Assembly (NCBI GenBank): GCA_963855995.1
Contig: OY979719.1
Span: forward strand, 1,674,001 to 1,738,000
Source: Muricea muricata
Lineage: Eukaryota; Cnidaria; Anthozoa; Malacalcyonacea; Plexauridae
DNA length: 64,000 nt
Direction of reading: 5' to 3'
The position numbers were made by a program, and so were the translations under genes. The notes under the pieces were generated by a model. It searched no databases. It was not told the DNA's origin and saw nothing but the letters and a program-made list of their open reading frames with translations. Positions within the stretch are counted from its first letter, which is position 1. Every line of letters starts with the position of its first letter. Shown piece by piece: positions 50,401-61,888 of this stretch.

Positions 50401-53400
50401 GGTAAGTCATGAATCTTTCTCTGTTATAAAGCATTGTCTCGAACTACTTCCTGGTAAGCCAATCTTTGAGTGGCAACTTGATTGAACTAGAAATACCGCA
50501 AAGACTCGAAAGTAAACGCCACCCCCCCCCCCCCCCCCCTCTTTTATGTAATGTAATGGCAAAGAAACTCTCTAAGTTACATGTATACCGTATATGCTCA
50601 GGCATGGCTTTAAACTTGGCCAATGCTGAAAATAACAACTTGAAAGTAGGCGTTCCTCTAGAATGCTAGCGCCCCTTGAGGCCACTTACGTTCGAGACTC
50701 AACGGTATAATGACCATCGTGGCATTTAAGTTATAAATGTTGTTCATTGCATATGGGTTTGCATCAATTTTTCAGAATATCCCGATGCCTGTGTGAGCAA
50801 CCCGTGTAATAACGGAGGAACATGTAATGTAACGTCAGGTAGTGGATACAACTGCACATGTCCCCAAGGGTTTACAGGGGATATTTGTGATCACGGTGAG
50901 TGGATGTCCCAAATTATGAAGCTTTAGAAGTATAGCTAATTCAATACAGGTTGTCGTTCCGAAAGCGTAAACTATAAACTATGAGCGCACCTCTAAACTA
51001 AGAATTATTTCTATGAAACAACATCTAAGACACATACAAAACTTACGACGGCAAATCTACTTGCTACAAAGGCAATTCCCTTAGTATCAGGGCCTAAATA
51101 AACAATTATCCATCATTCCTTGCGCGCTCATAGTTCACAGTTTACGCTTTTGGAAAGACAAAAAAAAGCTTTTTGAAATAGCTGTATATAAAAAAATACT
51201 CTTTGACTAGTACTATTAATAAGTCGAGTGCCAACCTCGTACCTAGGCTCTCTTCTCTACGTTCCTCACTGGAGGAAGAAACCCTGGTAAATGCTAGTCA
51301 CGTGGCTCCACATTCTGGGAACCAACTTGTGAGGGATGGTGTGTAGTACTTGTTGATGTATGTAATTTTGGTCTTACTTTTGATGAAAAGTGTAACACGA
51401 GTTACATTTGTCCAAAAAACTTACGAATCCTCCCCTAACTAGTAATGCATAATTATCCGAGTGGCTCCCGAAATCTGGGTGCCACGTGACCAGCATTCAC
51501 CAGGGTCTCTTCCTCCAGCGAGAGGCGTAGAGAAGAGAGCCTGGGTACGAGGTTCTTTAAGTGCTTGGCATAAAACTAAGAGTAACACAGCAAACACCAT
51601 TTCCACCAGAGCACATAACAGTGAGATCCATAAAAATATTGACTAAAATGCTTATGGCTGTAGTTAATGAGACTGTAATTAACAGCTGTTTGCTTATTTT
51701 CGTTGTTTTAGAAATCGACGAGTGTTCAGAGAGTCCGTGTCTCAACGATGCACAGTGTGTAGATGTAGAAGGCGTTAATACATTTTATTGCGTCTGTAAC
51801 TCTTTTTATACCGGCGAAAGATGTGAGCAAGGTAAGACAAAGCTGGTGGATGTATCATTTTTTTCATGGCTTCTATACACCCTATAACCCCGCTAACTCG
51901 AACTCTCAAGGGAGACGAAAAATTCTTCGGGCTACCGGGGGTTCGAGTTTGCGAGGTTGGTGTCAAATATCGTTTATTAGGTTAATAATTAATAAGTTAT
52001 AGTAGTTTTATTGTTCATTTACAATGTGAGCGACTACGGTGTAATTTACTGATAGTTCTAGTGTTATCTAATACTTACAAAGACCCGTGCTTTACTAAAA
52101 ACAAGAAACTAACAACGAATCTCTAAGGCTAAGGTTCAGTTCTAATGTCAATCAATTTGTATTTCTTCCAAATAATATTTGACGCTCCTTCGCAGCTGAC
52201 TTGTCTCATATTTCGCTCGGAAGCAAATTTTAGGTTACGGATGTTTGAAGCTATACTGTATGTATAAATTGATTAAACTGTTGTTGTTTAAATCGATTTA
52301 CGCTTTCGAATCATGAAATTTAAGTTTCATTTCAGGTTTTCAGATTCTCGTTTCGAGATTAGAGTTCGAGTTAACCGGGGAAATTTGACCAAGGGAGAAT
52401 GAAATTTGTTCGAATTAGCGAGGAATTCGAGTTAAGCGAGGAATTCGAGTTAAGCGAGTTCGAGTTACCCGGGGTAAATTACTATAAAATGTACTATCAA
52501 ATCCTGGGGAAATTAGTTCGAGTTAGAGGGGAGTTCGAGTTAAGCGAGTTCGAATTAGCGGGGTTCTACTGTGTAATAAATTGTTCCTTATAAGTCTAAT
52601 TCTCTTTTCTAGCCGCTTAGTCTATGTAACTGTCTTTCAATCATATTTTCCAGATATCGACGACTGTGCTACTTCGCAGTGCTCCCAAGGTTCTGTGTGT
52701 ATCGATGGTTTGGGAACATTCACCTGTCAATGCCCACCAGGTTACGCTGGAGAATTTTGTCAAATGAGTAAGTGTTCTAAGTTCTTAACTTGGAAACGAA
52801 AATTGCTTTCTGTATGACTGTATACAAGGATCAAGAAATTTAGCCCCCAGTCCAAATTGAAATTCCGCACTTTATATTACATAAGTCAGACCATTGCTAA
52901 TTAACTACAAATAAAACTATACTCTGGCTGGTTTAATGACTTTTCGATAGTCTGACTTGCTGTCGAAATACGATGGCAGTAAGTGTTGAATTCAATACAC
53001 AATTATGTTTTGTACTTACAGAAACAGACGAATGTGCTAGCATGCCTTGCCAAAATGACGGACAATGTGTTGATCACGTGAACGGCTACACATGTCAGTG
53101 TCGTAGGGGATATTCAGGGATAAACTGTGAACATGGTAGGTTAAAGAACACCATAATCTATTATATTTAATCAAGTTCCATTCATAGTTTCTCTATGTAA
53201 AGGAAGCAAAATTCTTATGAGTGATAGGTAAGGGTTATCCACGTCTTAGGATGGTTATTTTATCTATTTTCAGTTCAGGCAAGTGCGTTTGAGGTTATCC
53301 GTACTAAAAGTGTGGTCTATGAGTCAGCCCGATACACCGTAGTCCACGCGAGAATCCCGCAAGATGGTCTCTCGCGCCATCAAACATGGTGCCATGACTA

Positions 53401-61888: not shown

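Follow-up and report, generated by a model that had tools for sequence, protein, structure and literature searches.

Giant modular matrix proteins are already a known kind. A described example with a similar layout is cnidarian Polydom, a large chain with an F5/8C-type domain and a tail that repeats one module several times; in Nematostella Polydom1 this tail consists of six Sushi repeats (PMC12549020). Here we analyse a stretch of 64,000 nucleotides from the anthozoan Muricea muricata (assembly GCA_963855995.1, contig OY979719.1, positions 1,674,001 to 1,738,000 of the forward strand), called the window below and numbered from its first letter. It carries a gene of comparable layout, whereas its array tail is far longer than that described for Polydom and is built neither of Sushi repeats nor of any other module named in Pfam. 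The repeated unit, about 150 residues long with up to five predicted disulfides, is probably an undescribed extracellular domain accounting for the larger part of a giant modular protein that would be secreted and form a rod. The identity of the domain is well supported; the secretion, rod shape, location and function of the protein are inferred.

The array exon and its modules

The array lies in one open exon of 8.6 kb on the plus strand, which holds 19 copies of the module. The open frame runs from 53228 to a TAA stop codon at 61886–61888, and owing to a splice acceptor AG at 53272–53273 the exon begins at 53274, in agreement with the first-pass annotation. From base composition, about 169 stops are expected in the 2,886 codons of this frame and only the terminal one is observed; the remaining five frames contain 113–225 stops. 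The exon and its modules are as follows.

53274–61888 (+): terminal exon, with the entire 19-module array and the stop codon
53285–53758 (+): module 1 (second structure model)
53759–54181 (+): module 2
54182–54691 (+): module 3, divergent, with a Thr/Ser/Pro linker
54386–54481 (+): 30-bp tandem repeat encoding the Thr/Ser/Pro-rich linker of module 3
54692–55141 (+): module 4
55142–55582 (+): module 5
55583–56038 (+): module 6
56039–56401 (+): module 7 (short)
56402–56857 (+): module 8
56858–57262 (+): module 9
57263–57706 (+): module 10
57707–58477 (+): module 11, extended by about 100 inserted residues
58478–58933 (+): module 12
58934–59359 (+): module 13
59360–59812 (+): module 14
59813–60253 (+): module 15 (first structure model)
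60254–60664 (+): module 16
60665–61093 (+): module 17
61094–61480 (+): module 18
61481–61885 (+): module 19, the C-terminus of the protein

It is unusual for a whole array to sit in a single 8.6-kb exon, and this might point to a pseudogene or an assembly artefact. We consider the chance of this negligible, since the frame has no internal stop, a second array locus is present in the genome and 17 related proteins were found, among them a colinear homologue, P0006. At 13,382 bases, the contig of P0006 could not hold a gene of this layout with its introns, and P0006 is therefore presumably a transcript. The gene, which was to be doubted if absent from transcripts, thus looks real.

The count of 19 copies first proposed is confirmed by the anchor W[CGT]x[DE]Y, present in every module at a spacing of 121–170 residues (one of 257), and by a unit profile that detects 19/19 modules at 100–181 bits, although it was built from these same 19 units. 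The run was said to be uninterrupted, which overstates the case, given the linker in module 3 and the insert in module 11. The anchor Trp proved invariant and is accompanied in all 19 modules by a Cys eight residues downstream. The Asp-Tyr pair, also thought to be invariant, occurs in 16/19 modules and is replaced by Glu-Tyr in the other three. Similarly, the expected eight or more cysteines are found in 15 modules, while four have six. The identity between modules has a median of about 30% and a maximum of 45% (169 pairs yielding a BLAST alignment); the array is therefore not a recent expansion.

Search for a known family and predicted fold

The proposal that the module matches no named family held against Pfam and the PDB, apart from a single marginal pass discussed below. 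On the protein of the array exon, every Pfam family stays below its cut-off, and nothing relevant was found at E 10 or less when single modules were compared with Pfam (14 members of module set A1 and 13 of set A2, the latter extended by Nematostella and type B modules). Sequence searches of the PDB gave no match below E 0.49. Structure prediction could have revealed a known fold; Foldseek searches with models of two modules gave no match below E 0.47 in the PDB and none below E 0.61 in the viral search.

The best Pfam match on the array exon is PF22220, the QSOX pseudo-Erv domain (E 0.00013, 23.2 against a cut-off of 27 bits), from which the module might descend. Precomputed PF22220 labels are also carried by P0003, P0004, P0005, P0009 and P0012, and in P0012 the family just passes (27.2 against 27 bits, E 7.1e-6) by summing weak matches. 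The likeness, however, amounts to such a weak score, added up across many modules, in some homologues. Neither in the array exon nor in any of the four proteins for which hmmscan listed PF22220 does a single stretch pass, the family matches no single module, and the best stretch covers only the last 18–29 of the 89 profile positions. In module 11, this stretch corresponds by alignment to a hairpin and loop in the predicted structures of modules 1 and 15; the Erv fold, in contrast, is helical. No Erv chain is among the matches listed by the fold searches. We consider descent from this domain very unlikely. DUF6946 (PF22187) also appears weakly in P0001, P0011 and P0014, its best stretches lying at profile positions 145–190 and no single stretch passing.

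The two modules were modelled with AlphaFold2 from alignments of modules of this window alone. Module 1 reached a predicted local distance difference test (pLDDT) of 91.7 and a predicted template modelling score (pTM) of 0.88 (17 rows), and module 15 a pLDDT of 82.9 and a pTM of 0.82 (14 rows). The two models agree in how their elements follow one another: a β-hairpin of two strands, one helix, a short strand, a pair of helices and, after a Cys-rich loop, the last strand.

The pairing of the cysteines was approached through their joint loss in the family. The starting set of 291 modules, which leaves out P0002, a duplicate of the window, and stretches shorter than about 92 residues or at 30 bits or less, was reduced to 119 non-redundant ones at 62% identity. 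Ten Cys columns are conserved in this set. Three disulfides are clearly supported by co-loss, namely 38–116 (phi 0.91), 55–84 (0.93) and 124–130 (0.86), and two are weakly supported. The best partner of Cys 68 is Cys 113 (phi 0.45), which correlates equally with Cys 38 (0.47). Cys 45 is invariant and Cys 144 is conserved at 87%; these two are paired by elimination only.

The predicted topology offers a lead, not a significant one, towards the C-type-lectin-like domain (CTLD). The module could be a very divergent CTLD and the protein a multivalent lectin-like rod. The hairpin, the WC.DY..LC helix and the last strand would then correspond to the lower lobe, the Cys-rich loop would replace the upper lobe, and the helix-to-last-strand disulfide would stand in place of the canonical C1–C4 bond. 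The hallmarks of CTLDs are a C1–C4 disulfide from helix 1 to the last strand and a WIGL motif, and no such motif is found in the 119-module consensus. The CTLD family PF00059 gave no match at E 10 or less in the 14 A1 members, the 13 A2 members or the whole exon, while this model picks up 114 stretches in other parts of the genome. Aligned by hhalign, the module profile reaches a probability of 0.8% and a score of 14.9 against the CTLD, a score attained by 5/100 column shuffles; positive controls scored 202 and 313. Compared with CTLDs (PF00059; CTLD7 of PLA2R, 6jli), the module thus lacks a sequence match, a significant profile match and a WIGL-like stretch, and it has three predicted helices and a different set of other disulfides. 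We regard a CTLD origin as doubtful. C-type-lectin exons themselves are densely clustered on contig C2 of the assembly, e.g., at 12.70–12.78 Mb and 54.67–54.93 Mb.

Related proteins and the order of the modules

The first protein search gave 17 related proteins with 14–21 modules each, the low counts possibly reflecting partial gene models. P0002 is a 100% match to the window and P0017 a 99% match to a second locus; both are therefore probably Muricea muricata's own, leaving 15 others. Two uncharacterized genes are direct homologues. In Dendronephthya gigantea, LOC114532356 has 14 modules in a model of 2,363 residues, with 58% identity over the aligned part. LOC116615639 of Nematostella vectensis has 20 modules in 3,147 residues; its N-terminal part differs, with EGF matches and no F5/8C match in Pfam. 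Shorter proteins with modules were searched for and none were found.

In the genome searched (453 Mb, 74 contigs), the array protein finds at least two loci, the window and C4:6456461–6466841, 4.7 Mb away. The second array, of about 20 modules, extends across three or more open stretches. Upstream of it lie relatives of the P0006 'jellyroll', of the next N-terminal region and of the EGFs, in the same order; the P0006 part homologous to the 'jellyroll' exon of the window has a 42% identical relative there. In this second gene (region C4:6446400–6472000), introns presumably divide the array into several open stretches, while the window array is one exon.

Module order was examined by comparing the best increasing path through two arrays with that of permuted orders (500 permutations; P0006 entered with 19 modules passing the length filter). 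Within gene type A, 18 of the 19 window modules have reciprocal best partners in P0006, and likewise in P0011. Within type A, the z values for order are 10.4 and 11.1. Three type A proteins compared with P0014 give 6.8–7.5, and P0011 compared with P0017 gives 3.9. In none of the six comparisons within type A or between A and B does any of the 500 permutations reach the real path. Module order has thus clearly been kept between the two gene types, and its conservation since the anthozoan ancestor is only suggested. For a tandem array, it is unusual that two gene types of one genome share a conserved order of about 20 modules.

Extracellular repeat arrays of such size are often variable, and the protein might be a fast-evolving recognition protein of immunity or allorecognition whose module number and order are in flux. 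The Thr/Ser/Pro minisatellite in module 3 and the range of module counts, with the caveat on low values given above, would fit this possibility. We consider it improbable, as the order is kept both among type A arrays and from type A to type B, the low identity within the array indicates that modules are not being homogenised, and the gene model described below has no transmembrane-like stretch (best 19-residue mean hydropathy 1.24).

Under the interpretation that we favour, an undescribed domain forming the bulk of a secreted protein, about 20 braced modules would give a long, stable, beaded rod in the extracellular matrix or mucus. The N-terminal F5/8C and EGF domains may be its anchoring or glycan-binding end, attaching it to glycans, lipids or matrix. 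Since the modules have long kept their order and each position has retained a sequence of its own, the positions may differ in their partners or jobs, or the length of the array itself may matter. A further, tentative proposal, which we hold to be less likely than the domain reading itself, is that the module has a new α/β disulfide-braced fold absent from the PDB, dates from or before the anthozoan ancestor, was never single but early became an array of about 20 modules, each of them specialised, and forms a rod of set length with position-specific sites.

Several observations weigh against the favoured interpretation. Outside type A, reciprocal best partners of the window modules fall to 8/19 in P0014, five in P0016, four in P0017 and three in the Nematostella protein P0015, with a single partner breaking the order in each of P0016, P0017 and P0015. 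Against Nematostella the order test is mixed, the numbers of permutations out of 500 that reach the real path being 0 for P0006, 3 for P0011, 38 for P0001, 70 for P0014 and 362 for P0016. The sequons, which had been called numerous, do amount to 42, barely above the shuffled 33.5 ± 5.3 (30/500 shuffles reach 42), a marginal enrichment. A signal peptide was looked for in the window's gene and was not found; speaking for secretion are the hydrophobic N-terminus of Nematostella P0015 (residues 15–36), which reads as one, and the lack of any transmembrane-like stretch in the gene model. Finally, the domain family appears undescribed in Pfam, the PDB and limited literature text searches, in which the names LOC114532356 and LOC116615639 were not found. 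The accessible portions of an octocoral skeletal proteome paper and of a Nematostella matrisome paper mention no such domain, and the protein may be listed unnamed in the supplementary tables of either.

The bulk of the chain is thus a domain that lacks a Pfam entry and for which our searches gave no confident structural relative. Anthozoan genes listed as 'uncharacterized' thereby come together in one family with a testable fold, a disulfide map and an array rule.

The whole gene and its surroundings

The upstream exons were found by homology to P0006, a homologue of 4,122 residues, and joined at consensus splice sites. They are colinear with P0006 at 42095–53140, upstream of the array exon. 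The resulting model has 19 exons, at least 3,820 residues (about 423 kDa) and no internal stop; about 2,870 of the residues belong to the array. Two F5/8C domains and EGF modules had been placed on the same chain as the array, and Pfam recovers both on the model, F5/8C at 94.6 bits in two stretches and EGF at 89.7 bits in four. The N-terminal features are as follows.

42095–42180 (+): first exon located by homology
45836–46389 (+): first F5/8 type C domain, in three exons, mapped from the gene model
46922–47495 (+): part of the second F5/8 type C domain (exons 46797–46990 and 47382–47495; PF22633 stretch)
48174–48665 (+): exon called 'jellyroll' in the first-pass annotation; no Pfam match
48826–50388 (+): BNR-like region, weak and below cut-off (15 against 31.4 bits)
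50776–50895 (+): EGF exon 1
51712–51831 (+): EGF exon 2
52654–52767 (+): EGF exon 3
53022–53135 (+): EGF exon 4

A transfer RNA gene, tRNA-Ser(aga), is predicted on the opposite strand (44837–44911) within an intron of the array gene (44522–45030). Exons at 34056–38306 (+), read by eye as fumarate hydratase, end upstream of the array gene. Between the two genes lies a G-rich minisatellite (38704–39658) with units of 10–50 bp; the guanine-plus-cytosine fraction is 0.54 in 38001–40000, compared with 0.35–0.41 in the adjoining blocks. Beyond the array, about 60 TTA triplets follow one another without a mismatch (63519–63699), directly ahead of a plus-strand reading frame that leaves the window.
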